NCBI GenBank assembly: GCA_947628005.1
Contig: CANQYI010000003.1
Span: 1-64,000 of the forward strand
Length of the DNA: 64,000 nt
Source of the DNA: an uncultured Clostridia bacterium
GTDB taxonomy: Bacteria; Bacillota; Clostridia; TANB77; CAG-465
Direction: 5' to 3'
The translations under genes and the position numbers were made by a program. Below are positions 1 through 27,731 of this stretch, piece by piece. The notes under the pieces are model-generated. The model did not search any database. It saw only the letters and a list, made by a program, of their open reading frames with translations, and was not told where the DNA came from. Every line of letters starts with the position of its first letter. Position 1 is the stretch's first letter.

Positions 1-540
1 CAATATAGTAGTTGTAGTAACTTTAGTTCCATCTACTGTTCCATAATCATATATTATACCATTTGCAACATTATAAGCTGCTGTAGTGTATTTTAAGTTT
101 GCAAGTGTTAAACTACTATCTGAAAGTCCTGACAATGTTTGAGTACTAGTTGCCGCTACCGGATATTTTCCATCTGTTCCCATCAAATAGTGTTCAACTT
201 TATAATTAACACTATTTGCTGTCCATCTTGCATACAAAGTGGTATTTGCAGCAAATTTTGTAGTTGTAAAGCTTGTTGTTATAAATCCATTTGCATTTAT
301 CAATTGTGTTCCACCAGAAGCTGCATTTGTATCATAAAATCCTGCAAAAGTATATCCAGTTCTTGATGGTTTTGTTATTGCGTTAGCAGTTGTTGACATT
401 GCTGTTGTACATGCTGCTTCTTTATATATTCCAGTTGCATATTTCTCATATATTGCCGTTGTTCCATCTGCTGTTCCACCATTTTTATTTAATGTTATTG
501 TTAACACTTTTGGTGTCTTTGAAGCTGTTGCTGTAAGTGT
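1..540 (-). repeat. Long in-frame repeat, copy B (454-codon offset)
   Basis: Bases 1-540 match 1363-1902 at an offset of 1,362 bp, exactly 454 codons. The segment 181-480 is almost identical to 1543-1842; similarity fades on either side. It encodes a HYL-type module ('YKVEHYLMGTDGKYP...') and the following 'GYTFAGFYDTNAAS' InlB-type unit. The near identity points to a recent internal duplication or gene conversion within the giant gene. More copies may lie beyond the left edge. Confidence 0.85.
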
Positions 541-3500
541 TATAGCTGTGCCCTCTGGCATAGCTGGCCATGTAAATGTTGCAGCCGCATTTTTCTGTGC
601 AGCAAGATAAGTTGCATTACTACTATTCCATGATACGAATGCTAAATTATAACCTGTAACATTATTTGTAACAGTTGCTGTTATCGAAACACTTGCTTGA
701 TAGTAGTATTTTTGCTTAGATAAAGTTGTTATACTAGTAACATTTGCATCTTTTGCCGTTGTAAGATATCCATAACTTCTTCTATAATATAGTTTTATTT
801 CTCTTGTACCATTAGCAAGAATAGTTGTTGTAGTAACTGTTGATCCATCTACTGTTCCATGATCATATATTAATCCATTTGTTACCACATATGTAGATTT
901 TGTAAGTGTAGACAGTGTAAGTTGTGCTGCAGTTGTTCCTGTCTTATCTTCTGATAATGTTGGAGCATTGTCTGCAGGATAAGCTCCATTTGTTCCCATT
1001 ACGTAGTGCTTTACAACATATTTTGTGTCTGTTCTTGGAGATCTTGTTGCACTAGCAGTAAGAGTTATTGTAGTATTATCTGCCATTGCCGGCCATGTAA
1101 ATGCTGGCTTTGGATTTGCTGTCGTAGTTGCTATTATACCAGTATTACTACTTGCCCATGATTTAAATGGTTTTGAGTATCCAGTTTCCCCTGGTATTGT
1201 AGCAGTAAGGGCTGGTACTGTTGCTCCATAATAATATGTTAGTGTTTTATCTTTAACTGAGCCACTTGAATTTGTGATATCAGTTACATAGTCACCTGCT
1301 TTTAATACAAGTTTTCCTGATGTTCTTCTGTAATATAGCTTAATTACTGTTGTTCCCGCTGGTGCTACAGTAGTTGTAGTAACTTGGGTTCCACCTACTG
1401 TTCCGTGAGAATAGATTATACCATTTGCAACATTATAAGCTGTTGTAGTGTATTTTAAGTTTGCAAGTGTTAAAGAACTATCTGAAAGTCCTGATAATGT
1501 TTGAGTACTAGTTGCTGCTGTTGGATATTTTCCATCTGTTCCCATCAAATAGTGTTCAACTTTATAATTAACACTATTTGCTGTCCATCTTGCATATAAA
1601 GTAGTATTTGCAGCAAATTTTGTAGTTGTAAAGCTTGTTGTTATAAATCCATTTGCATTTATCAATTGTGTTCCACCAGAAGCTGCATTTGTATCATAAA
1701 ATCCTGCAAAAGTATATCCAGTTCTTGATGGTTTTGTTATTGCGTTAGCAGTTGTTGACATTGCTGTTGTACATGCTGCTTCTTTATATATTCCAGTTGC
1801 ATACTTTTCATATATTGCTGTTGTTCCGTCTGTTGTTCCACCATTTTTATTTAGTGTTATTGTTAACACTTTTGGTGCTGTAGTAGCACTAGCTGTAAGT
1901 GTTAAAGCAGTATTTTCTGCCATTGCAGGCCATGTAAACGTAGGTTTTGGATTTGCTGTAGTTGTAGGAATTAATGTTGTATTATTACATACCCAACTTG
2001 CAAATGTCGTATTATAACCTGTTACTGAAGCTAAAGTTGCGCTAAGAGATGGCACAGTTGCTCCATAATAATATTTTAAAGCAGTATCTTTTACAGAAGT
2101 TGAGCCATTTTTAATATCAGTTACATTACTTCCTATTTTTGGTGTTAAAGTTCCGTAAGTTCTCTTATAATATAAGTTTATTACTGTTGACTTATCACCT
2201 TTTATTGTTGTAGTTGTTACTACTTTTCCTCCGACTTGGCCGTTTAAATATAAAATTCCATTTGCCACTTTATAATCTGCAGTAGTTTTTGCAAGTGCAG
2301 ATAGTGTAACACTAGAATCAGTTGTACCAGATAAAGTTTCTGTAAGTTTAGCTGTAGCCGGATATTTTCCATCTGTTCCCATTACAAAGTGATTTACTTT
2401 GTATTCTGATTGACCTGCTGTGAATTTAGCTACAAGTTCTACATTTTCAGCACCTAAAGTAAATTTATATGATGCTGCAGTAGAAACTCTTTGATTATTC
2501 TTATACCAACCTTCAAATGAGTATCCAGCAGCTGCAGTAGCAGTTACGGTTACAGAAGAGTTGTAAGCATAAGTATTTGCACCAGTTGTAGTTCCACCTG
2601 CGGCAGGTGAACTAGATGTTTTAACTGTATAATTATTTATAGTCCATTTTGCATAATAAGTAATATTATCAGATGTAGATGTAGGAGTTATTTTTTGTCC
2701 TCCTGTTCCAATTAATGTACCTGATCCATTATTACTTGTTTCTGTACTATACCAACCATTAAATGTGTAACCTGTTTTTGAAGGAGTTGGTAAAGTTATT
2801 TGACTACCAGTATTAGATATAGTAGCTGTAACAGTTGCATCTCCTTCTGCAAATGTAAATACAGTAGGATTTGAAGTATCACTTGATAATGATCCAACAC
2901 CTGAAGATAATGTCCACTTAGTAACTGTTCTATTAGATTTTACATTAGCAATAGTATTTCCTCCATTAGTATCATAAGTTATTGTAAATTGAGGATTTAA
3001 TTCTATTGTTTGAGTAGAATTATAATTTCCTTGGTATTTTAATCCACCAGGATTTACAGTTAACGTGTAAGTGTTAATCTCCCACTTTGCATATAGTGTA
3101 GTATTAGCTGAAGGAGAGAATTTGCCTCCTGCCTGGCCTACTAAGTTTCCTGAACCATTATTATTAGTTTTACCATCATACCAACCCTTAAATGTATAGC
3201 CAACTCTTCTTGCAGTAGGTAATGTTATCTCATTTCCTTTTGCATTGTAGCTTGCTGTAAGAGTTGCATTTCCTGCTCCATATTTAAAGTTAGTAGGATT
3301 GCTTGTAGTACTATCTATGCTACCTTGTCCATCAAGTGACCAACTTACAAAGTTTCTAATTGAATTCATACTTGCAACATTATTTCCACCATTTACATCA
3401 AAAGTAACTACATATTTTTGTTCAGGTGCTTGTACCTGTAATGAAGTATTATAATTTTGAGTGTATTTTTTATCTCCTGGTTTTACTGTAAGGGTGTATC

Positions 3501-6500
3501 CATTTATTTGCCATTTAGCATGTAACGTAATATTACCTTTTGGCTCATAGTTTCCTCCTGCCTGTCCTACTAGATTTCCTGAACCATCGTTATTTGTTTC
3601 ATTATCATACCATCCCTTAAATGTATAACCTGTCTTTAATGGAGTTGGTAAAACTATTGCAGCGCCTGTATCAGAATAATTAGCTGTAAGTGTACCATTA
3701 CCTGCTCCATAAGTATATGTTGTAGGATTTTGTGTATTACTTGATATAGTTCCAAGTCCTGTTAAACTCCAACTTGTAAATGCTCTATTTGAAACTGAAT
3801 CTGAATAACTTGTTCCACCATTAGAATCAAATTTTACAGTATAAGTTTGTACAGGAGCGTCTACAGATTTCTTAGAATTATAATCTTGTTTGTATGTGCT
3901 TCCACCTGGATTTACAGTTAAAGTATATTGATTTACTTTAAAGTTACCAGTTATATTAACATTTCCTGCTGGCATAACAAATGTTGTTGTTGCAGAAGCA
4001 GTAGAAGCAATTTTTATATCAGTATTAGTTGTTGACCAACTACTAAATGAATAACCTGTGTTTGGAGTAGCCTTTATAGTTACTGTTTGTCCATATACAT
4101 ATGAACCACTCTTTTCTACCTTACCTCCTGAAGTTGCAGTAAGAGTTAATGTATAAGACTGTCTCTTATAGTACAATTTTAATATAAGTGATCCATCAGG
4201 TTTAATATTTGCTGATTTAAGAGTTCCATTTACAGTTTCATCAAATACATATCCTGTATAAGTATTTGCTTTAGCTGTAGCCAAGTCATCCGTTCTACCA
4301 TATGCGTCTTGCTTATAAGTAGGCTCTGTAGGATAAGTTCCATCTACATTTTGTAAGTAGTGATAAATTTTATATGGTGTTCCTTCATTTGCACCCCAAC
4401 CTGCGTATAAAGTAACGTTTTTATCTGTTGTAAAGTTATCTCCTGCCACACCTACTTTATTGTCAAGTTGTTCATCACTATACCAACCTTCTAAGTAATA
4501 ACCCTGTTTAGTTGCATTAGTTAATTTTATTGGATTATTTACATATTTAGCTAAAAGTGTACCATTTCCATTACCAAATGTAAATGTCTTATCTGTACTG
4601 TTATAATTTCCTATACCAGATTTTGTCCATCCGTCAAATGATTTTGTAGTATGGTCACCTGGTGTAGTTGGCGTTCCTCCATTAGCATTATAAACTATAT
4701 TGTATCCATCAGGTGGTGTAACTACCCCATCTATTGGATAAGTTTGTTCATACATTCCATATAATTCCTGTACGGTAGGATCATCATTATATGTTCCACC
4801 GTTAGGATTTATACTAACTTTTACTAATTTTCTTGAATAGTACAATTTTAATACTAAAGTTCCTTCTCCATTTACTACACCTTCACTGACTGTTCCTTCC
4901 ATCAAAGGAGCATATTCAAATCCAACGTATGATCTTGGAGTTGCTGTAACTTTTGTATCAGTTATTGCACTTAGTGTTTCTTCATAATCTAATTCAAATG
5001 TATAATCTAATTTTTGCTTGTAATGTTGTACCTTATAATTAGATTTTAAGGCTTCCCATTTTGCAACTAAGACTGTGTCTCCTATACCAAATGTAAATGT
5101 TTGAGTTGTGCTCTTTATTGGAGATACGGATGTAATTTTACCTGCGCCAGTCTTTGTCCAACCTGCAAATTCATAACCTGGTCTTACTGGTACTGGTATA
5201 TCCATTTCAAATCCATGTTGTTTATTTATTACTGTGTTCTTATTTGAATCAGACCATGTACCACCATTTGGATTAACTGTTAAATTATATTTATTTCTTG
5301 TGTAATATAATTTTAAAGTTAAACTTCCATCTTCTAGAACTGTTCCACTTAGCTTTGTTCCTTCAATATTTGGGTCAAATGTAAATCCTGCACTTGAATA
5401 ATCAAGTGGTTCAGTTGAAACTGTATCACCTGTGTTTGCATCTAATACTTTTGCCTCATATTGATCGAATCCATTTAAAGCAAGATTTTGTCTATAATGT
5501 TCTATTCTATAATTTGTCATTTTTGACCATATAGCATAGTACTGAGTATCAGAAGTAATATATTCTGCTTCTCCTGAAATTAAATAATCATTTCCTGGGA
5601 AAGCATCTTTATCTTTACTCCAACCTTTAAATGCATATCCTGGTCTTGTAGGTGGTACTTCTGGTAAGTAAGCAGAATCGTATTTTCTATATGTTAACAA
5701 TTCATAAACTGCTTCTGTACCATCATTTAAATAAGCTACCAAATTATATCTTGGTAATTTATCTGCTATGTATGCAGACTCACCTGAAGAAAGTTTTACA
5801 TTTCCACTCCAAGAGCCTCCCTCAATTTTAACATAGCATTTTTCTGTAGTTTCATAAATACCATTTGTACTTGCTACCACATAATTTCCGTCTATTGTAT
5901 TTGATACTGAAATAACTACATCACTGCTAGATGAAATATCAAATACATAACCTGAATCCGGAGCATAAATGATGTAATATCCATCATCTGATTGTAATGT
6001 TCCAGCCATTGAATCAAAACTTGCATTATGCGTACTAACATCTACTGCATCAACAGTAGCATATTGCCAGTTTGCTATATAAGTTCTATCTCCTATAGAT
6101 CCTTGTCTAATTACAACATTAAGTACTGGGTTTAAATCTTCGGGAGTTGACCAACCTTTAAATGCATAACCTTCTCTTATTGGGTTATTTAAGACTATAT
6201 CTTTAGTAAGTACTGTATAAGAAGTAGGGTTTGGTTCAACTTCTACACCATCATTTAATATATATCTAATTTTGTATCCATTTACACTAAATTTTGCAGT
6301 TATATCTACATCAGAAGCTGGCATAGTAAATGTTGTAGTCCTTGATTTACTATCTGTAAGATTTACTCCATTTGTAGTAGTTATCCAATTTGTGAATGTA
6401 AAACCATCATTTACAGTTGTAGATATTTCAACAGATTGTTCAAACTTATATGAATTTGCTCCACTAAGTTTACCTGCTCCTGCTGGATTTGCAAAAAGTG

Positions 6501-9500
6501 ATAAATTATATGAATTTCTAGTATAGTATAATTTTAATACCAAAATGTTATCAGGATCAGCAGATACTACACCTTCTAACTTAGTTCCATCAATACTACC
6601 ATCAAATGTGAAACCTTCTATTTCCTTTGGTGTAACGTTAACTGTAGAATCAGTATAATTAGATAAAGTTTCAAATTCTCTTAATGAGTATGAATCTCCA
6701 TATATATCTTCAGTATAATATTCTACTCTATATGGAACTTTTTCAGCTGTCCACTTAGCATATGCATTTACATCTGATCTTGGTGTATATGTAGCCCCTG
6801 CATCTCCCATTCTAGTATTAAATGTTTCATCTCTATACCAACCACCAAATGTGTATCCTAAACGTGAAGGTGATGGTAAAGTAATTGATTCATTCTTATA
6901 ATTTGCACTAATAGAAGCATCGCCTATATCAAAAGTAAATATTCCATTTTCAAAAGTTCCTTTTCCAGATCTAGACCAACCAGTAAATGTTTTATGAGCA
7001 TTAGTATTTTCTTCAGTAATTACTGCTGTACCCTTATTTAGTTCATAAGTTACAATAAAATCAGCTGGTGGTGTTGGATCTTCTATATTTTCAGTATGAC
7101 CATGTTTTTTACTTATTAGTGTATTAGAAGTAGACTCTCTAAATGTTCCTCCTTTTGGATCAACAGTTAGTGTATATTCTTTTCTAACATAGTATACTCT
7201 TAAAACTAGAGGATTTTCTTTATCAGCAATTATATTACCGCTAACATAAGCATTATCTACTGTATCATCACGAACATAACCTAAATATGATTTAGATTCT
7301 GCAGTAACTAAACTATTTGTTGTTCCAGTAAGTGTTTCTGTTTCCTTTATAGAATAAGTACCATCAACATTTTCTATATAATGTTCTACTTTATATATTG
7401 TATCATTTGCTTCTATCCATTTTGCATATAAAGTTTTGTTATCTTCTGATACATATTCACCTGAAGCATCTCCTGCTTTTTTATTAAAGTCTTCATCTTC
7501 ATACCAACCTGCAAATACATATCCATAACGTGTTGGTTCTGGAAGTATTACTGGTGCAAAATAGTAATTTGCAACTAAAGATCCTGAACCTATTCCATAT
7601 GTAAATGTACTTGTAGCTTTATCAAATGATCCTACTCCCATTCTTGTCCATTCTGTAAATGTCTTTGTTGAAACTGTATTAGCATCTTCTAGAGTAATAT
7701 CTCCTCCATAAGTTTCATATGTAATTATTGCATCTGCTTTTGGTAGAGGATTTTCTACTAAAAGAGTTTGACCATGTTTTTTATTTATTACTGTGCTTGC
7801 TGTAGTATTACCCCATGTTCCACCATTTGGATTAATTGTTAAACTATATAAATTTCTTATATAATATAATTTTAATTCCAAAGTACCATCTGGTAAAATA
7901 TTTGCACTTGTTAAAGTTCCAGGAATTGAGCTATCAAATGTAAATCCATTATATTCATTTATAGTTGCACTAACTTCAGCACCTGTAGTTCCATAATTTA
8001 CTACTTCTTCTTGTAAATCATAGCCATTTGCATCTACATTTTCTAAATAATATTTTATTTTATATTTTACATCGTCTCTTGGTCTCCATTTTGCATACAA
8101 TGTTTGAGACTCTGCTGGTAAATATGTCTTTCCGGCATCTCCTACTTTTTCTTCGTACTTATCATTTGTATACCAACCATCAAATATATAACCTACTTTT
8201 GTTGCATCTGGTAAAACTATTTCACTGTTTTTATAATTTGCAACAAAGGCTTCATTACCAATACCAAATGTATACAAATGAGTGTCATTATCAAATGTGC
8301 CTATACCAGTTCTTAGCCACTGTGTAAATGTATAAATTGATGTTGTATTTTCCTCTTTTAAATCTGCTTGTCCGTCATATAATTCATAAGATACTATAAT
8401 AGCTGGTGGCACTACTGGATCTTCTATTGGCTCAGTTTGACCATATTTCTTAGTTATAATAGTGCTTGAATTTGAGTCTCTAAATGTTCCACCATTTGGA
8501 TTTACTGTCAAATTATAGCTATTTCTTACATAGTACAATTTTAATTCCAAGCTACCATCTGGAGCAATAGTAGATGTTACTAAATTATTTGTATTCTTAG
8601 AATCAAATTTAAATCCATCATAAGTTCTTTGCTTTGCAGTAACTTTAGCATCTGTTGTACCAGTATAATAATCTGTATCAGCTAAATCATAACCTGTTGA
8701 AGTAACATTTTCTTTATAATGTAATACTTTATATTCTGTATTTGTGTTTGGTTTCCACTTTGCATATAGAGTTATTGAACCACTTGGTACATAACTTTGT
8801 CCTTCAGTACCTGCTTTTTTAGTAAATCTTTCATCTTCATACCAAGCCTCTAGTGTATATCCTACTTTAGTTGCTCCAGGAAGTGTTATGCTTCCTCCCA
8901 ACCATTTTGCATAAATATCATGGTCAGAATCAATTGTAACGTTAGTTGTTTCATTAACTAGAGTACCTGTAGTAAATGTATTAGTAGTATACCATCCACT
9001 AAATGAAAATACTGAATTTGTATTTTCTGTTGTAAGTTCAACTACACCATTATTTGTATTATATTGAACTGAAAATTCTTTTTTTGGAGAAGGTAGTGTA
9101 CCATATGGCTTATCAAAAGTTACTTTTTTAGAAGTATCTTCATTATTTGAAGTAGCATCGTTATATTTGTAAGTTACTTCATATTCATTTGCTTTATACG
9201 TTGCAGTTATCTTTTCGTCAGAATATGTGAAAGTATAATTTGTTCCACTTATATTTCCTTTTCCTTCTGTTAACCAACCATTGAAAGAATAACCTCTCTT
9301 TGTTGGTGTATCTATTTTAATAGTTTCTTCATATTTTCCATGTAAAACTGTATTAGAATTTGTGCCTGCATATATTCCAGTATTTGGATCAATAGTTAAT
9401 GTATAAGAATTTCTTGTGTAATATGATTTTAATACTAGTTCACCACCATACTCTGCTATACCAGATGCTTTAGTGTTATCATTTCCTAAATCATATTCAA

Positions 9501-12500
9501 ATCCATTAATTTCTTTTGGCTCAGCAAATACAGTAGAATCTACTGTTGCAGTTAAAGTTTCAGATAAATATAGTGAATATGAGCCATCTAACATTTCTAT
9601 GTAATGCTGAGAAGTATATGTAGTTTTTCCTGCACTCCAAATAGCATATAAAGTTACTATATCTCCATTTTTTGTAGTTAAATTTAATACTTCTTGTTCA
9701 TCTAAAAATTCCGGTTGTTTTGCATCTTTATTACGATCCCATCCTATGAAAGTGTAACCTGGTCTTTCATAAGTATTTGCTGATAATTTCTTTGGTATGC
9801 TATATTTGTGTGCACTAGGTTGCATTAATGCACCTGTTCCCTTATTTGGATCATATTTTATTGTATAATTTATTCCTTCAAAAGCAGCTGTAATTGATAC
9901 ATCAGAATCTGGCATTTCAAATGTAGTCTCAGAACTTAAGTTATTTTCAAGATTAGTATTATTTGTAGTTACAGTCCATTTAGTAAACATATATCCTGCA
10001 TTAGGAGTAGCTTTTATGCTTACAATCGTACCATAAGGATAATCTTGTGCTTTTTCTACTGTACCTGAATTTACAGGTGTAATTGAAAAGTTTAATGAAT
10101 GAACATTTCTTGTATAGTATAACTCTAATACTAAGCTACCATCAGGCTCTATATTACCTTTTGTAACTGTTCCTTCTATTGAACTATCAAATGTAAATCC
10201 AACATAATTCTTACTTGTAGCTATGGCTTGTGTATCAGTTATTCCTTGTAATTCATCTGTTTCATAAAGTTCATATCCATCTTTTGTAACATTTTCTCTA
10301 TAGTGTAAAACTTTATATGGAGTATCTGATCTTGCAGTCCACTTTGCTGTTAGTGATACTTCTTCATCAGGGATGTATTTTTCTGAAGCTGTTCCAACTC
10401 TTTTTGTACCATTATACCAACCTTCTAAGTCATAACCTTGTCTTGTTGCTTCAGGAAGTATTACTCCATCATTTTTATATCTAGCAGTTAAGACACCATC
10501 TCCATCTAAATATTTAAATTCGCTCTTTTCTGCATCAAATTCACCAATTCCTGTTTTCTTCCATTCAACGAACAAATTATTTGTGTAGTCTTCTTCCTTA
10601 CTGCTCACACCACCATTTCCATTATATGTAACCTTATAGCCAATTGCTGGTACAGGATTATCTATTCTTTCTATAGTCTCATACTTACCAGGAATTACTA
10701 CAGTTGATGTTACATCTTTATAAGATCCGTTTTGTGGATCAACTGTAAGTTTATATGTATTTCTAGTATAGTATACTTTAAGTAATAAAGAATTATCAGG
10801 TAATACTACACCTTCTGACTTTGTTCCATCAATATATTGGTTATATGAAAAACCTACATATTCTTTTAATGGAGCTGTTATAGTTGAATCTGTTGTAGCA
10901 GTATAAGTTTCTGTTTCATATAAATCATAATCTGTAGAATTTAAGTTTTCTCTGTAATATTCTACCTTATAATTTGATTTACCAGGTGCCCATTGAGCAG
11001 TTATAGTTGCATCTGAAGCATCAAATATAAATTTATTTGAGCTCATTGAACCCATTCCGTCAATTTTCCATCCAGTGAAGACATAACCTTGCTTTTTAGG
11101 ATTAACTATAGTAACGGATGTTTCAAATTTTCCTGTTATTGTGCTATTTTCAGTTGTATTTGCAAACGTTCCTCCATTAGGATCAACTGTTAAAGTATAT
11201 ATATTTCTTACATAATAGAATCTTAATGCAAGTGAACCATCACCATTAACATTTCCACTTGTTATATTTTTATCTATATTCTCATCATATGAGAAACCAA
11301 TATATTGTTTTGGTTCAGCACTTACAATTGTATCTGTAGTTGCTGTATAATTTTCAACACTATCTAATATAAATGCTGTAGAATTTAAATTTTCTAAGTA
11401 ATGTTCTACTCTATATTCAGATATTCCAACTTGCCATACTGCATATAAAGTTACTACGTCACCATCTTTTTCTGATAAGTTTTGTACTTCTTGTTCATCA
11501 CCAAAATCTGGCTGTGTTGCTTGACTATCTAAACTCCATCCTGCAAATGTATAACCAGGTTTTGTATAAGTATTTTTAGCTAATTTTTGTGGTACATTAA
11601 ACTGATGAACACTTTCAAATCTACTTCCTGTTCCACCATTAGGATCATATTTTATTTTATATTCAATATTTTTAAAATTAGCTGTTATTGTAACATTTTC
11701 TGCTGGCATCTTAAATGATGTAGTAGGAGAATTTTCATTATTTAATTTAAGTTTTGTACTTGAAGAAGTCCAATTTTTGAAAATATAACCTGTATTTGCA
11801 GTAGCAGATATAGTAACGTTATCCATGAAAATAGCTTTTGTACTTCCTGTTACTTTACCAGAATCTTTAGGGTATGTTACTAGTGTTACTGTAAATTCAT
11901 TAGCAGCAGTTATAACATTACCAGATAATGGTACTTTCTGTCCATGGCCTTCATTTTTAACATCATCTGTTACTGTACCCTCTAGTAAATCATATATAGC
12001 CAATACACCATTATCATCATGTTCAATTGTGTATTCGTATATCATTTCATTTCCAGAGGCAGATACATATGTTGCATTTTTTACTTCTGAATCTCCAAAT
12101 CTAATTGTAAGTTGTGGTTGACTTACTACAGTTATGTTTTCAGTCCATCTTACTGCAAAAGTTACTTTTGTACCCTCTTTATATTTTCCAGTCTCAGGAG
12201 ATATAACTTCTATTTCAGATACACTAGGAGCAATATTATCTAAGCAAATTTCATATTCTTCAGTTACAGTATTTACACCATCAGTAGTTTCAACAATGAT
12301 AGTTGTAGTTCCATCAGTTACTACTAAAGTGTCTGTATTAGTTGGTGCTATAAATTGAGCAGATCCCTCTTTAGATCTATATTTTGTATTATTTTTAGCG
12401 CTATCATCTAATCTGATATATACATTACCTTTTACCTTTTGACCAGGTGTATATGTTGCTCCACTAGCAGAATCTAAGCTAAAATATATTTTTCCAATAT

Positions 12501-14619
12501 TTAATTTCTTTGTTCTAATTAATTTTTCTTCTGAATCAGCGAAGTTTCCTGCTATATCATAAGTTCTAGTTTTTACATAATAATCTGTATCATGATTTAA
12601 ATTAGTAAATCTATTAGTGTATTGGAATTCACCCCAAAGATCGCCCTTCTTTATTGCATATTGTGTTCTTTCTTCATTTATTCCAGAATAGGCGTAATCA
12701 CTGGTTGCTGGTGAATCTTCTTGCTTATTTGTTACAACAATCATGTTAGTTGAAGAAGCTGCTGTAGGAGCTGTTGTAGTTGGATCTATTTTATCTATAT
12801 TTCTTACGTAATATACTGTTGATTCACTCTTTTGATTTGTACTATCTGTAGTTCTAGCATATATATCATAATTTTTTGATATAGGGACTGGAATAGTATA
12901 TGTCTGCCATCCATCATCACGTGGTTCATCACCTATATTAACTACTTGATATTCTGCTGTAATACCTGGAGTATTATCTTTAGAGACAGTAGCTTTTATA
13001 TTTAGATTTGTCCAATTTTCATTATCTATTGAAATACTTGGAACAGGAACTTTATGTACAGTTACTGTCTGTTCAGCAAGTTTTGATCTATTTCCGGCAA
13101 CATCTACTGAAACAACCCCTATTCTATATGATTGCTTTTGAGTTAAATTTTCAAATGTATATTCATTCTTTGTAGTTGTTTCTACTACATTTCCATCTTT
13201 ATAAAAGATATATGTATCTACTCCACTACCATTTTCATCAGTTGCATTTACACTTGCAAATACACTATTTGTAGTAGCAGAAGTAGTAAGTGCTGCTGTA
13301 GGATTTACTGTATCTATTTTTACTATAAATCCATTAGAAGCTGAGCCAACCATATTCATACGATTATATGATCTTGCTATAATAGTTGTTGTACCTTCTG
13401 TATCTATTATTGTAGTTGGATCTTCTTTTTCTACTCTTTGCCATGTAGTACCACTATCTGTACTAAATTCATAGTGATCTATAAACAATTGCTCATCTGG
13501 TGTCTTAGTTGAGAATAATAATTTAATGTGAGATTTATTACTCCATACATCAGATTGTACACCGTCTTCTCTAGATATTACTGGTGCACTTGGTAGTTCT
13601 TTATTTATATTAACTATAAAGTAACTTTCAGGTCCTATTTGACCAGTCGCAGCAATAGCCCTTGCCCTTACTTCATGTGATCCATCAGTAGTAAATACTA
13701 TAGATGTAGAATTTGGTATATATTCAAGCCAGCTCTTACCTCCATCTAAGCTATATTCTAATTCTTCATTTAATGATGGTTCAGCAGAAGCAATAGTTAT
13801 TTCTACATTATCACTAGTCCAAGTTCCACTTACATATCCAGTAGTAGAAGTAATTATTGGTGCTAAGCTACCAGTCTTGTTTATATAAACTTCAAATTCT
13901 GATACATTACTTCTTACTTGTTCCTCATTTATTGTAGCAACTGTTCTTACTTGAACAATTTGTTTTATATAAACTCCGTCAAAATATAAACTAGTTCCGT
14001 TACCTTGTGTAACTTTTGAAAAGCTTAAACCATTATCTAAACTGTACTCATAGTAATGAGGTGTACTCTCATTGCTAACACCGCCACTAAATGTTAGTGT
14101 AACAGCTTGAGTTGATAACATACCACTTTCAACGTTAGCATTTATTTCTGGTGAGAAGACTTTTGGTAACTCTGCACATGAATTTTTACATACTTTTTCA
14201 GCGCCAGCTAAGTTTTCTGCCCATTTATATTCTTCAGAATTTTCATCATCAATTATAAATACAACTTCACCATTACAAATTTCTACTTTTCCTTCTAAAG
14301 GAGAGCCCTTAAGTGATGGTAGCCAATCATAAATTTTATCATCTTTCATTGAGACATTTATGTCTTCATTGGCCTCAAAGTCGTTTATCTTAATGTTTAA
14401 TTTCGAAGAGGTTAATTCATTTTGTAAATTAACAAAATCATTTCTAAAAGCAGCCTGATTTGCATTATCAGTTGGGTTACTATCTTTTAGAGATAATAGT
14501 ATAACTGATAAAAGTATTAAAGCTACTAATATTGTAATGATTAGTGTTATTAAACTTATACCTTTATTCTTTCTATTTTTTTCCATGTTTGTTGATTTAA
14601 AATATACACTTGTTTTCAT
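1..14619 (-). CDS. Giant InlB-repeat surface protein with prepilin-like leader (3' end beyond window)
   Basis: This reading frame runs from an ATG at 14619 to base 1 without a stop, at least 4,873 codons, so the C-terminus is missing. The start follows AGGAGG (14630-14635) with a 10-base gap; an in-frame ATG at 14586 is a second choice. The N-terminus is basic, then G20-ISLITLIITILVALILL, a class III prepilin-type hydrophobic leader, but position +5 is Thr, not Glu. Residues of about 150-870 look like Ig-like/chitobiase-type and bacterial Ig modules (repeated 'YSLDGG', 'VxARA' and 'VDxAGNxS' patterns). From about residue 930 on come repeats: 'GYxFxGWxxD...LYAxW' (InlB B-repeat/Listeria-Bacteroides type) alternating with 'YxVEHYLEN...LYYxRxxYxLTVDPNGG' units. 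It is probably a cell-surface adhesin or structural protein. Its secretion route and ligand are unknown. The repeat family is clear; the function is inference. Confidence 0.9.
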   Translation of the reverse strand, partial: MKTSVYFKSTNMEKNRKNKGISLITLIITILVALILLSVILLSLKDSNPTDNANQAAFRNDFVNLQNELTSSKLNIKINDFEANEDINVSMKDDKIYDWLPSLKGSPLEGKVEICNGEVVFIIDDENSEEYKWAENLAGAEKVCKNSCAELPKVFSPEINANVESGMLSTQAVTLTFSGGVSNESTPHYYEYSLDNGLSFSKVTQGNGTSLYFDGVYIKQIVQVRTVATINEEQVRSNVSEFEVYINKTGSLAPIITSTTGYVSGTWTSDNVEITIASAEPSLNEELEYSLDGGKSWLEYIPNSTSIVFTTDGSHEVRARAIAATGQIGPESYFIVNINKELPSAPVISREDGVQSDVWSNKSHIKLLFSTKTPDEQLFIDHYEFSTDSGTTWQRVEKEDPTTIIDTEGTTTIIARSYNRMNMVGSASNGFIVKIDTVNPTAALTTSATTNSVFASVNATDENGSGVDTYIFYKDGNVVETTTKNEYTFENLTQKQSYRIGVVSVDVAGNRSKLAEQTVTVHKVPVPSISIDNENWTNLNIKATVSKDNTPGITAEYQVVNIGDEPRDDGWQTYTIPVPISKNYDIYARTTDSTNQKSESTVYYVRNIDKIDPTTTAPTAASSTNMIVVTNKQEDSPATSDYAYSGINEERTQYAIKKGDLWGEFQYTNRFTNLNHDTDYYVKTRTYDIAGNFADSEEKLIRTKKLNIGKIYFSLDSASGATYTPGQKVKGNVYIRLDDSAKNNTKYRSKEGSAQFIAPTNTDTLVVTDGTTTIIVETTDGVNTVTEEYEICLDNIAPSVSEIEVISPETGKYKEGTKVTFAVRWTENITVVSQPQLTIRFGDSEVKNATYVSASGNEMIYEYTIEHDDNGVLAIYDLLEGTVTDDVKNEGHGQKVPLSGNVITAANEFTVTLVTYPKDSGKVTGSTKAIFMDNVTISATANTGYIFKNWTSSSTKLKLNNENSPTTSFKMPAENVTITANFKNIEYKIKYDPNGGTGSRFESVHQFNVPQKLAKNTYTKPGYTFAGWSLDSQATQPDFGDEQEVQNLSEKDGDVVTLYAVWQVGISEYRVEHYLENLNSTAFILDSVENYTATTDTIVSAEPKQYIGFSYDENIDKNITSGNVNGDGSLALRFYYVRNIYTLTVDPNGGTFANTTENSTITGKFETSVTIVNPKKQGYVFTGWKIDGMGSMSSNKFIFDASDATITAQWAPGKSNYKVEYYRENLNSTDYDLYETETYTATTDSTITAPLKEYVGFSYNQYIDGTKSEGVVLPDNSLLLKVYYTRNTYKLTVDPQNGSYKDVTSTVVIPGKYETIERIDNPVPAIGYKVTYNGNGGVSSKEEDYTNNLFVEWKKTGIGEFDAEKSEFKYLDGDGVLTARYKNDGVILPEATRQGYDLEGWYNGTKRVGTASEKYIPDEEVSLTAKWTARSDTPYKVLHYRENVTKDGYELYETDELQGITDTQAIATSKNYVGFTFDSSIEGTVTKGNIEPDGSLVLELYYTRNVHSLNFSITPVNSGTVEKAQDYPYGTIVSIKATPNAGYMFTKWTVTTNNTNLENNLSSETTFEMPDSDVSITAAFEGINYTIKYDPNKGTGALMQPSAHKYSIPKKLSANTYERPGYTFIGWDRNKDAKQPEFLDEQEVLNLTTKNGDIVTLYAIWSAGKTTYTSQHYIEMLDGSYSLYLSETLTATVDSTVFAEPKEINGFEYDLGNDNTKASGIAEYGGELVLKSYYTRNSYTLTIDPNTGIYAGTNSNTVLHGKYEETIKIDTPTKRGYSFNGWLTEGKGNISGTNYTFTYSDEKITATYKANEYEVTYKYNDATSNNEDTSKKVTFDKPYGTLPSPKKEFSVQYNTNNGVVELTTENTNSVFSFSGWYTTNTFTTGTLVNETTNVTIDSDHDIYAKWLGGSITLPGATKVGYTLEAWYEDERFTKKAGTEGQSYVPSGSITLYAKWKPNTNTEYKVLHYKENVTSTGYDLADTDYYTGTTDAKVTAKQRTYDGFKFDSKNTNNLVTSTIAPDGSLELKLYYVRNSYNLTVNPNGGTFRDSNSSTIITKKYGQTEPIEDPVVPPAIIVSYELYDGQADLKEENTTSIYTFTQWLRTGIGTFDNDTHLYTFGIGNEAFVANYKNSEIVLPDATKVGYIFDGWYTNDKYEEKVGDAGKTYLPAESQTLYAKWRPRDDVKYKIKYYLENVDANGYDLQEEVVNYGTTGAEVSATINEYNGFTFDSSIPGTLTSANILPDGTLELKLYYIRNLYSLTINPNGGTWGNTTASTVINKKHGQTLLVENPLPKADAIITYETYGGDITLEDANTVSTKTFTEWTRMGVGSFDKATSTFTYGIGSGSLVANYYFAPVILPEPTRYGYVFAGWYEDEDFNKKAGDASGEYVSEDNKTLYAKWIEANDTIYKVEHYIENVDGTYSIKETETLTGTTNSLVTAESKSYLGYVRDDTVDNAYVSGNIIADKENPLVLRVYYVRKEYTLTVDPKGGTFRESTSNTLISKKHGHTENIEDPTPPADFIVTYELNKGTAVITEENTNAHKTFTGWSRSGKGTFENGIFTFDIGDASISANYKNESITLPSPSRLGYTFGGWYRDETFNTRMGDAGATYTPRSDVNAYAKWTAEKVPYRVEYYTEDIYGDSYSLREFETLSNYTDSTVNVTPKEIEGFTFDGSIDGTKLEGVVSADPDNILVLKLYYTRNSYNLSLFANPAGAGKLSGANSYKFEQSVEISTTVNDGFTFTNWITTTNGVNLTDSKSRTTTFTMPASDVDITAKFSVNGYKIRYILNDGVEVEPNPTSYTVLTKDIVLNNPIREGYAFKGWSTPEDLNPVLNVVIRQGSIGDRTYIANWQYATVDAVDVSTHNASFDSMAGTLQSDDGYYIIYAPDSGYVFDISSSSDVVISVSNTIDGNYVVASTNGIYETTEKCYVKIEGGSWSGNVKLSSGESAYIADKLPRYNLVAYLNDGTEAVYELLTYRKYDSAYLPEVPPTRPGYAFKGWSKDKDAFPGNDYLISGEAEYITSDTQYYAIWSKMTNYRIEHYRQNLALNGFDQYEAKVLDANTGDTVSTEPLDYSSAGFTFDPNIEGTKLSGTVLEDGSLTLKLYYTRNKYNLTVNPNGGTWSDSNKNTVINKQHGFEMDIPVPVRPGYEFAGWTKTGAGKITSVSPIKSTTQTFTFGIGDTVLVAKWEALKSNYKVQHYKQKLDYTFELDYEETLSAITDTKVTATPRSYVGFEYAPLMEGTVSEGVVNGEGTLVLKLYYSRKLVKVSINPNGGTYNDDPTVQELYGMYEQTYPIDGVVTPPDGYNIVYNANGGTPTTPGDHTTKSFDGWTKSGIGNYNSTDKTFTFGNGNGTLLAKYVNNPIKLTNATKQGYYLEGWYSDEQLDNKVGVAGDNFTTDKNVTLYAGWGANEGTPYKIYHYLQNVDGTYPTEPTYKQDAYGRTDDLATAKANTYTGYVFDETVNGTLKSANIKPDGSLILKLYYKRQSYTLTLTATSGGKVEKSGSYVYGQTVTIKATPNTGYSFSSWSTTNTDIKIASTASATTTFVMPAGNVNITGNFKVNQYTLTVNPGGSTYKQDYNSKKSVDAPVQTYTVKFDSNGGTSYSDSVSNRAFTSWSLTGLGTISSNTQNPTTYTYGAGNGTLTANYSDTGAAIVLPTPLKTGYTFKGWYDNETNNDGSGNLVGQAGGNYEPKGNITLHAKWQINGYTLTVKPGDKKYTQNYNTSLQVQAPEQKYVVTFDVNGGNNVASMNSIRNFVSWSLDGQGSIDSTTSNPTNFKYGAGNATLTASYNAKGNEITLPTARRVGYTFKGWYDGKTNNNGSGNLVGQAGGKFSPSANTTLYAKWEINTYTLTVNPGGLKYQGNYNSTQTIELNPQFTITYDTNGGNTIANVKSNRTVTKWTLSSGVGSLSSDTSNPTVFTFAEGDATVTATISNTGSQITLPTPSKTGYTFNGWYSTETSNNGSGTLIGTGGQKITPTSTSDNITYYAKWTINNYTVKTSSSPAAGGTTTGANTYAYNSSVTVTATAAAGYSFEGWYKNNQRVSTAASYKFTLGAENVELVAKFTAGQSEYKVNHFVMGTDGKYPATAKLTETLSGTTDSSVTLSALAKTTADYKVANGILYLNGQVGGKVVTTTTIKGDKSTVINLYYKRTYGTLTPKIGSNVTDIKNGSTSVKDTALKYYYGATVPSLSATLASVTGYNTTFASWVCNNTTLIPTTTANPKPTFTWPAMAENTALTLTASATTAPKVLTITLNKNGGTTDGTTAIYEKYATGIYKEAACTTAMSTTANAITKPSRTGYTFAGFYDTNAASGGTQLINANGFITTSFTTTKFAANTTLYARWTANSVNYKVEHYLMGTDGKYPTAATSTQTLSGLSDSSLTLANLKYTTTAYNVANGIIYSHGTVGGTQVTTTTVAPAGTTVIKLYYRRTSGKLVLKAGDYVTDITNSSGSVKDKTLTYYYGATVPALTATIPGETGYSKPFKSWASSNTGIIATTTANPKPAFTWPAMADNTTITLTASATRSPRTDTKYVVKHYVMGTNGAYPADNAPTLSEDKTGTTAAQLTLSTLTKSTYVVTNGLIYDHGTVDGSTVTTTTILANGTREIKLYYRRSYGYLTTAKDANVTSITTLSKQKYYYQASVSITATVTNNVTGYNLAFVSWNSSNATYLAAQKNAAATFTWPAMPEGTAITLTATASKTPKVLTITLNKNGGTADGTTAIYEKYATGIYKEAACTTAMSTTANAITKPSRTGYTFAGFYDTNAASGGTQLINANGFITTSFTTTKFAANTTLYARWTANSVNYKVEHYLMGTDGKYPVAATSTQTLSGLSDSSLTLANLKYTTAAYNVANGIIYDYGTVDGTKVTTTTIL
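1363..1902 (-). repeat. Long in-frame repeat, copy A
   Basis: This is the partner of the repeat at 1-540. The two copies differ mostly by silent or conservative changes in the core 1543-1842. Copy A includes the glycine-rich 'YSHGTVGGTQV' stretch, where copy B has 'YDYGTVDGTKV'. Confidence 0.85.
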
Positions 14620-14658
14620 AAAATGATAACCTCCTAAAACAAACAATAATTCACTTAT

Positions 14659-14687
14659 ATATTACTATAAAACTAAACTTATTTCAA
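14659..14687 (-). promoter_or_regulatory. Probable sigma-A promoter of the giant gene
   Basis: On the minus strand, TTGAAA (14682-14687) and TAATAT (14659-14664) are 17 bp apart. They lie about 40-70 bases upstream of the ATG at 14619. This gives the giant gene its own promoter, separate from the gene to its right. Confidence 0.55.
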
Positions 14688-14725: not shown

Positions 14726-14760
14726 AAAATCCTTAGAGCCTCAAGGCTTCTAAGGATTTC
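14726..14760 (-). terminator. Rho-independent terminator after the 168-aa gene
   Basis: The arms AAATCCTTAGA and TCTAAGGATTT flank a second GAGCC/GGCTC-like pairing. On the minus strand a run of Ts follows. It sits directly after the stop at 14765 and closes the operon that ends with the 168-aa protein. Confidence 0.8.
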
Positions 14761-14764
14761 ATTT

Positions 14765-15271
14765 TTATTTAATTTTTATGTTTACATCATAGGCATTAGA
14801 TATATCTTGATCTACTATATATTCTAGTATATATTTTGAATTTGAGGTTATAACTGGAACCTCTTTTTCAAATGAATGAATAACATTGTTATTTTCATCT
14901 AAAAAATCTACTTTTACAGTGAATTTTTTAACTATAGAATTTGAGATATTATTTATATTAGCATGAAAAGCAGTTCTTTTATTACTACACATAAGTTGCA
15001 TTTTATCTACTACAATACTATCTGTAAGTTCTATTTCTTTATTTATATTTGGATTTACATTTACTTTATCTCCAGAATCCGTCAAAATAACATTATCAAG
15101 ATTTGCATTATTACCTTTTACTAAACTTTTTTCTTCTGGGGTAAGTGTATCAATATAGCTTGGCTTTTCAAGTTCATCATCTTTATTTTTTTTATTAAAT
15201 ATTAAAGCTAATACTACTATTACAACTATTATTAAAGCTATTGCAATACAAATCTTTATATTTTTTTTCAT
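14765..15271 (-). CDS. Membrane-anchored extracytoplasmic protein, FxLYD-like
   Basis: 168 aa. Residues of about 5-25 (KICIAIALIIVVIVVLALIF) form one membrane segment after a Lys-rich start, followed by a charged linker and an outer domain. From about residue 80 that domain alternates beta-strand-like stretches ('VVDKMQLMCSNKRTAFHANINN', 'KKFTVKVDFLDENNNVIHSFE'), resembling FxLYD/NEAT-linked beta-sandwich domains seen in Bacillota; this match is by eye only. It starts 12 bases after the stop of the 1.9-kaa repeat protein, has an AGGTG site, and is followed by a terminator, so it is the last gene of that operon. It may be an accessory factor for the neighbouring leader proteins; that is inference from position. 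Confidence 0.8.
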   Translation of the reverse strand: MKKNIKICIAIALIIVVIVVLALIFNKKNKDDELEKPSYIDTLTPEEKSLVKGNNANLDNVILTDSGDKVNVNPNINKEIELTDSIVVDKMQLMCSNKRTAFHANINNISNSIVKKFTVKVDFLDENNNVIHSFEKEVPVITSNSKYILEYIVDQDISNAYDVNIKIK

Positions 15272-26591: not shown

Positions 26592-27584
26592 CTAATTTAC
26601 TTTTTCAAATCTTAAAACATCAATATTGGTATTACTATCTCTTACAACATTACTAATTATACCATTATATATTCTTATAGAATAATATTCTTTATTAGAT
26701 GTCTTAGGAATTTCAATTGAAGTTACAGTGTTTAAAGTAACATTTTGTGTTTGTTCACTAGCACCACTTATGTTATAAGTAGTAATTGAATTTTTTGTTG
26801 AATCATACACATATATTGCTTTAAAAATTTTATCTTTGCTCTTTGTTGCTGGTATTTTATCTAGTTTTATCGCACTACTATCTGTATTTATTTGAAGTAA
26901 TTCCGTATTATCTTCATTTATATCTTTATATACAACTTCAATAGTAAATGAGTTATTTACAAAATTTATTGGAAATACAGCGGAAAAATTAGTTAAATCT
27001 GTTTTAAATGTAGTACCAGTCCAACAATCATTTGTATTGTTTTTTATAATTGTAGCATTATTATTGTTTGAAGTTAAATCCTTCCATCCAGTAGCAGTGT
27101 TAGAAAAAGCTCCTCCAACGTTACTACCAGCTTCATAATAGCCTATAAGATTATCACTTTTATAAGATATAAGTCCTGCCTTACAAGCAATATTAAATTC
27201 TTGTTCATCAAAATCATCATCACTTAATGGAGAATATACTAATTTGCCATTATTTATTACAAAAAGTTTAGAATCCTCCTCTGTCATGCTGTTTAAAATT
27301 GAAAAAATATTTCCTTCAATAATTTTATTATCGTACATTATACAGTCCAAATTCGCACTCAACAAATCTTTGTTATATGAAATTCCTTCCTCAAATTCTC
27401 TTTTACTTACATAATCGTCTATATCAATTCTATAAGATTCTATCTTTTCTCTGAAAGTTGCTTCAAACGCTGATTCGGTTAAATTTTGATCTTTCATTGA
27501 AAGCACAACTGTTGTAATAAGTATTGCCATAACTAGAATCGTTATAAGTAAAACTATTAAACTTATTCCTCTATTTTTTTCCAT
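26592..27584 (-). CDS. Small prepilin-leader protein with LamG-like C-terminus
   Basis: About 330 aa from the ATG at 27584; the longer GTG start at 27599 is buried in the AGAAGGTG site. The leader is MEKNR-G-ISLIVLLITILVMAILITTVVLS, with Val at +5 where pilins have Glu. The next stretch is helical and charged ('ESAFEATFREKIESYRIDIDDYVSKREFEEG'), like a pilin stem. About residues 165-330 look like a LamG/concanavalin-like domain: 'LIGYYEAGSNVGG...WKDLTSNNNNATI', then 'NSFTIEVVYKDI', and a final strand 'YYSIRIYNGIIS'. The same layout closes the 1.9-kaa protein. Probably surface-exposed; partner and substrate unknown. Confidence 0.85.
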   Translation of the reverse strand: MEKNRGISLIVLLITILVMAILITTVVLSMKDQNLTESAFEATFREKIESYRIDIDDYVSKREFEEGISYNKDLLSANLDCIMYDNKIIEGNIFSILNSMTEEDSKLFVINNGKLVYSPLSDDDFDEQEFNIACKAGLISYKSDNLIGYYEAGSNVGGAFSNTATGWKDLTSNNNNATIIKNNTNDCWTGTTFKTDLTNFSAVFPINFVNNSFTIEVVYKDINEDNTELLQINTDSSAIKLDKIPATKSKDKIFKAIYVYDSTKNSITTYNISGASEQTQNVTLNTVTSIEIPKTSNKEYYSIRIYNGIISNVVRDSNTNIDVLRFEKVN

Positions 27585-27731
27585 ATATTTTATCTTCACC
27601 TTCTGTATATAATATTAATATATAAAAAAATTTTTTTCAATATTATAATAATTTTTTTTAATATTTATTAAGTAATATTATATGTATAATTTAATATAAT
27701 TTATTATGGAATTTATTGAGGTGATAAATAT

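Follow-up and report, generated by a model that had tools for sequence, protein, structure and literature searches.

Genes and features at the locus

The window, i.e. the whole 64,000-nt stretch of DNA that was analysed, opens with a giant gene on the minus strand, whose features and neighbours are collected in Table 1. Translation of its frame gave 4,873 residues with 0 stops, and the five other frames over the same gene contain 206-616 stops each, with open runs all of at most 112 codons. The longest open frame in shuffled sequence of the gene had a mean of 88 codons and a maximum of 170 codons (200 shuffles). GC content by codon position is 40/44/11%, the pattern of genuine coding DNA. The stop-free frame, the coding composition and the ribosome-binding site upstream of the start codon together bear out a single giant open reading frame, as an earlier note made from the sequence alone had proposed.

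Table 1. Coordinates of the features in the window and of the retroelements in related genomes
Feature	Position	Strand	Remarks
Giant open reading frame	1..14619	-	At least 4,873 aa; from ATG at 14619 to base 1, open at the contig end; stop and C-terminus outside the assembly
200-nt exact repeat, copy 2	242..441	-	Next to the contig end; exact-repeat search
200-nt exact repeat, copy 1	1604..1803	-	Exact-repeat search
Repeat region, residues ~906-4873	1..11904	-	PF09479 List_Bact/InlB-B, PF18998 and Mub-like modules
Ig/FN3/OmpL47-like beta-sandwich region, residues ~150-905	11905..14172	-	Weak family matches only
Pilin-like module, residues 12-149	14173..14586	-	Alignment; AlphaFold2 pLDDT 80.6
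Hydrophobic alpha1N segment ISLITLIITILVALILLSVILLS, residues 21-43	14491..14559	-	Hydropathy 3.24
Leader peptide, residues 1-20 (...NRKNKG)	14560..14619	-	Predicted cleavage between G20 and I21
AGGAGG ribosome-binding site	14630..14635	-	10 nt before ATG 14619; read directly
Promoter-like TTGAAA-N17-TAATAT	14659..14687	-	9/12, weak; found by scan upstream of the giant gene and set aside, the frequency of such matches being near chance here
Imperfect hairpin (one bulged A), then T-run	14731..14755	-	By eye; not reported by scan
168-aa membrane-anchored protein	14765..15271	-	12 nt downstream of the 1,925-aa gene
Complete paralogue, 1,925 aa	15284..21061	-	Same leader (weak GspG match), PF09479/PF18998, C-terminal Laminin_G_3
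335-aa leader protein, the third in the window	26592..27599	-	Leader profile match
Retroelement, G023	L211 2356-4499		Template/variable mismatches at template adenines 12/12
Retroelement, G009	L213 205-3178		Template/variable mismatches at template adenines 8/8
Retroelement, G034	L216 8486-9715		Template on minus strand; mismatches at template adenines 27/27
Retroelement, G083	L219 942-4695		Template/variable mismatches at template adenines 11/11

The hairpin and T-run, a possible terminator, sit between the giant gene and the gene of the 168-aa protein. The latter protein had no family above cut-off in profile searches, and its gene is probably co-transcribed with that of the 1,925-aa pilin-like paralogue. 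LPXTG is absent from this paralogue, and its C-terminal Laminin_G_3 domain is lectin-like. The 335-aa leader protein contains the motif-like string IPKTS without a hydrophobic tail.

Leader and pilin-like module

The giant protein begins with MKTSVYFKSTNMEKNRKNKG followed by ISLITLIITILVALILLSVILLS, i.e. with a hydrophilic leader ending in Gly and then a hydrophobic tract, which is the class III pattern and upholds the earlier claim of a prepilin-type leader at the N-terminus. The leader region shows the conserved [KR]-G-I-S-L as well as the tract, and TM-like character in the protein as seen is confined to residues 21-43. Over 58 aa the leader region shares 38% identity with the major-pilin-like subunit of the type IV pilus operon of the same genome. 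Among 119 sampled leaders of the lineage the pattern is near-invariant even at positions which the search motif fixed only loosely or not at all (L6 in 115/119, T9 in 111/119).

Residue 5 of the mature giant is Thr and not the Glu usual in filament-forming pilins, and Glu5 is absent from 118 of the 119 leaders. The subunit capping the tip complex also lacks Glu5 (PMC10191384), so that Glu5 is not taken here as strictly defining for pilins. Its absence fits a tip subunit, but a lineage-wide filament variant is more likely, because nearly every leader sampled lacks it.

Many proteins of related genomes have N-termini that can be aligned with residues 12-149 of the giant. For this module AlphaFold2 predicted a long kinked helix (~57 residues) followed by a short beta-hairpin and a helix, a model with the outline of a small pilin. 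Foldseek and VIA-align gave no significant match of this model to a solved pilin. When a profile of the module was run against the PDB, the only matches were marginal ones to Geobacter pilins (E 0.027-0.046), the best being the short type IV pilin ('Geopilin domain 1', 9egp and 7tgg, E 0.027 and 0.046, respectively), which, unlike the giant, is a ~60-residue helical subunit without an adhesive module. The curated prepilin models PF07963 and TIGR02532 did not match the giant protein; the 1,925-aa paralogue matches TIGR01710 (GspG) at 1.3e-4, below the model's cut-off.

Repeat architecture

From residue ~906 onward, PF09479 and PF18998 repeats alternate with Mub-like modules of the type 'YKVEHY..LKLYY', and the middle of the region is built of ~223-residue super-repeats. 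PF09479 was matched in 18 stretches at 1.5e-99 (326.5 bits against a cut-off of 27) and PF18998 at 7.9e-81, which confirms the repeat architecture foreseen earlier, including the InlB B-repeat profile. The super-repeat is predicted to be all-beta, with about three small domains each (pLDDT 89), and the ~3,970 residues of the region, at ~75 residues each, give an estimate of ~50 small beta-domains. LPXTG was likewise absent, as previously stated, from the 4,873 residues that can be seen.

Proteins with InlB B-repeats (List_Bact_rpt, PF09479) have their repeat family in common with the giant by both sequence (2y5p, 7.5e-6) and fold. Internalins are exported by a Sec signal, are attached at the C-terminus through GW, LPXTG or other elements, and have no pilin leader. 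The closest structures to the predicted super-repeat are the Lactobacillus Mub repeats (3i57, 4mt5) and YwfG, with an identity of ~14%; the model matched the L. reuteri Mub repeat 3i57 in Foldseek at 2.7e-4. Both Mub and YwfG are surface stalks that bind mucus or mannose, and Mub is LPXTG-anchored with a Sec signal. In the literature available, a search combining InlB B-repeat with prepilin found nothing relevant.

Contig end and length of the protein

The window starts at the first base of contig C3, which is 201,308 nt long and belongs to a genome of 1.2 Mb, 16 contigs and 98.4% completeness, whose contigs we sampled region by region; the giant gene is therefore truncated by the assembly and not by the choice of window. 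The C-terminus is out of view, as had been recognised, but the end of the contig is the cause. No overlap partner for the start of C3 was found among the 32 contig ends compared, and the last 170 aa of the giant protein had no match in their own genome other than on C3. Six other pairs of contig ends share overlaps of exactly 77 nt, the signature of an assembler working with k=77.

Exact repeats of at least 25 nt in the giant gene are limited to 200, 74, 31, 28 and 25 nt, all within its last ~2.4 kb. The only one above 77 nt is the 200-nt repeat beside the contig end, which is probably the reason for the break in C3. As no repeat above 77 nt occurs in 1804-14619, 4,272 codons are safe from misassembly at k=77; the last ~600 codons, which hold the 200-nt repeat, are less certain. 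The frameshift, stop or repeat-inflated length against which the earlier note had cautioned did not appear in the assembled sequence, the frame being unbroken and at least 4,272 codons repeat-safe. It is highly improbable that misjoined repeats inflate the length or that two neighbouring genes have been fused, for although the assembly is of the short-read type with k=77 joins and has a 200-nt exact repeat near the contig end, no other exact repeat exceeds 74 nt in 14.6 kb, the aligned super-repeats are 33-46% alike, so that k=77 joins are unambiguous, and frame and coding composition run on unbroken.

The leucine-rich-repeat open end of contig C5 was considered as the continuation of the giant and rejected, as it fits a broken gene on C10 instead. 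Contig C10 ends inside this other leader-protein gene (L064 3-800), whose continuation, judged by sequence, may be the leucine-rich repeats with which C5 ends. Contigs C8 and C13 are joined by a 77-nt overlap inside one further leader-protein gene (L063 2-817 on C8; L065 9066-9533 on C13).

Pilus machinery and leader proteins of the genome

A type IV pilus operon on C1 encodes the ATPases PilB and a PilT-like protein, PilC, a PilN-like protein, minor pilins, an A24_N domain and the major-pilin-like subunit, which has Val5 and a leader similar in type to that of the giant (KQGISLIVLVITIVVVIIL). A catalytic A24 prepilin peptidase is encoded on C2, apart from the operon. The leader profile gave 19 matches in this genome at E <= 0.1, and a broader leader profile gave 13 at E <= 1e-5.

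The prepilin peptidase looks split. In the pilus operon, the A24 N-terminal domain, which is of the methylase type, forms a fusion with a minor pilin that has Glu5 (L058 10582-11403, C1), and the catalytic A24 domain has an ORF to itself (L059 5235-5981, C2). Similar ORFs were seen in G018, G017 and G002; in G011 the two are separate overlapping ORFs.

Comparison across the order

A leader that acts by way of the pilus machinery would be expected to disappear from genomes that have lost this machinery. This expectation was tested in 114 genomes of the order, with PilC as the marker of the pilus motor and the presence of at least two leader proteins as the score. Such presence was recorded in 85/88 genomes with PilC as against 6/26 without it (Fisher 3.5e-14), and within the genus in 12/12 as against 1/15. 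PilB was also absent from 16/16 PilC-negative genomes tested. On an RpoB tree built from 25 genomes of the genus, two changes suffice to explain the co-occurrence there, so that the genus represents about two independent events, not 27, and the P value overstates the independent support. The genera g19 and g25 and the genome G051, which are off the tree, may add about three more such events.

Six exceptions (G022, G033, G076, G104, G113 and G082) have 3-31 leader proteins without detectable PilB or PilC. Their completeness is 88% for G022 and 97-99% for the other five, and a missing operon-bearing contig could explain some of them. Conversely, PilC occurs without any leader protein in three genomes of the family f2; PilC there scores far above the rest and may belong to a different type.

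The longest complete leader proteins of relatives among the matches listed have 2,574, 2,361, 2,313 and 2,221 aa. The same leader heads complete proteins of 1,500-2,574 aa in relatives, and these have lectin-like, SH3-like or Ig-like ends and no wall anchor. A C-terminal TM helix or a convincing sortase signal was absent from all 103 complete leader proteins, the one motif-like string among them being the IPKTS noted above; LPXTG-type motifs and TM tails were searched directly, and SLH and WxL through Pfam scans only. The C-terminal LPXTG, SLH or WxL anchor for which the earlier note had suggested looking is thus unlikely, though the giant's own end is out of view and a sortase gene is present (C2, L059 9380-10147, PF04203 3.8e-12). 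That note had also regarded a prepilin-type leader in place of a Sec signal and LPXTG anchor as unusual in so long a protein. The leader type is not odd in itself, since modular pilins have been described (PMC8179133), the genome holds about 19 profile matches and complete relatives attain the lengths given above. The size is indeed unusual: the cut giant is about twice the largest complete relative among the matches listed, though larger ones may exist.

A probable modular pilin-like adhesin

Modular pilins have been recognised recently, and only a small number have been investigated. A 2021 survey described pilins onto which adhesive domains are grafted, the most extreme one that it named having 860 residues; one from Streptococcus sanguinis with a vWA module is adhesive by experiment, and another has a ConA-like lectin module (PMC8179133). 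The S. sanguinis proteins PilB and PilC (PMC8179133, PMC9934059) resemble the giant in their class III leader, pilin module and grafted adhesive module, and their host, like the present genome, is a monoderm with a type IV pilus operon. The lectin module of S. sanguinis PilC is of the same type as the lectin-like domain of the window paralogue. Domains that are not pilus-specific lie C-terminal to the pilin module in both window proteins, namely PF09479/PF18998 in the giant and Laminin_G_3 in the paralogue. The mature S. sanguinis PilB, however, has 454 aa and Glu5, whereas in the giant at least 4,850 residues follow the leader, with tens of repeat domains and no Glu5.

The giant is probably an adhesin of the modular type IV pilin kind that the pilus machinery displays. 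The leader pattern, the weak matches of the paralogue to GspG and of the pilin-like module to Geobacter pilins, the predicted helix and hairpin, the pilus operon with an A24 peptidase, the order-wide co-occurrence, the anchor-free relatives, the adhesin-like repeats and the adhesive modular pilins of S. sanguinis all argue for this reading; it is weakened by Thr5, by the lack of a match to curated prepilin models or in Foldseek, by the six exceptions, by the small number of independent events and by the size, no solved filament with so large a subunit being known to us. The giant is then a known kind of protein, that of the modular pilins S. sanguinis PilB and PilC, much enlarged and without Glu5.

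In the proposed mechanism, Sec would insert the giant protein into the membrane and the A24 prepilin peptidase would cut its leader after G20. The hydrophobic helix would be held in the membrane until the PilB/PilC machine feeds it into a type IV filament or a short pseudopilus, with the giant most likely at the filament tip or as a rare subunit. The ~50 beta-domains, carried outward, would form a flexible and probably multivalent stalk binding mucus, glycans or matrix.

The main competitor is a membrane-anchored stalk adhesin, in which the helix, cleaved or not, serves as a signal anchor only and the protein crosses the wall without entering a filament. A single TM-like segment at the N-terminus, the absence of Glu5, the genomes that keep leader proteins without detectable PilB or PilC, and a size hard to pack into a filament body are all consistent with it. 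The near-invariant pattern of the 119 leaders, however, exceeds what a signal anchor needs, and leader proteins are nearly gone where PilB/PilC are absent in most lineages, which makes this explanation rather unlikely, though it deserves more weight than any other rival. Repeats of the giant's type occur in LPXTG proteins and the genome has a sortase gene, but a sortase-anchored MSCRAMM-like adhesin, with LPXTG in the missing C-terminus and the helix as an unusual Sec signal, is very improbable given that 0/103 complete leader proteins, the 1,925-aa neighbour included, have a convincing anchor signal.

Retroelements in relatives and a possible display platform

Four relatives have shorter proteins that carry the giant's leader and whose lectin-like tips are hypermutated by diversity-generating retroelements (Table 1). 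In each, the variable repeat of the retroelement is the FGE/C-type-lectin-like C-terminus of a leader protein, and a reverse transcriptase of ~340 aa (318 aa in L216) and a ~120-aa accessory-like gene are found nearby. A retroelement in the genome of the window itself was ruled out, as no reverse transcriptase was found there. The literature on retroelements and type IV pilins, represented mostly by titles and abstracts, yielded no retroelement-targeted type IV pilin, which speaks only weakly for novelty; a survey of retroelement targets does not mention pilins, and a search of the available literature combining retroelements with prepilin found nothing relevant.

A wider proposal, which we put forward tentatively and hold somewhat less probable than its opposite, is that in this order of small-genome Clostridia the main role of the pilus machinery is to act as a platform for display. 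Modular pilins without Glu5, up to dozens per genome and some of them thousands of residues long, would replace sortase- or S-layer-anchored adhesins; in some genomes retroelements would hypermutate their lectin-like tips, and the giant would be the extreme stalk of the system. If true, this suggests how these small-genome Clostridia hold to surfaces or mucus, and provides a clean case of retroelement hypermutation aimed at pilus-type subunits. At about ten times the size of characterised modular pilins, the giant tests both the load that a filament can bear and the assembly of a Glu5-less subunit, and the lineage offers a natural test, with leader proteins and pilus motor missing together in several branches.

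Genome G018 has giant leader paralogues of 2,574, 2,221 and 1,852 aa (L191 8583-16307, L192 2509-9174 and L193 2943-8501, respectively), with near-identical N-termini and C-terminal ...LLRGG...FRAV ends that differ. Their sequences suggest that the giant pilins of G018 may also be hypermutated; the search for a template repeat covered one reverse-transcriptase contig of that genome. In the genome of the window, an 808-aa leader protein (L062 6721-9147, C6) ends in an FGE-sulfatase-like domain, the kind of end that is diversified by retroelements in the relatives.
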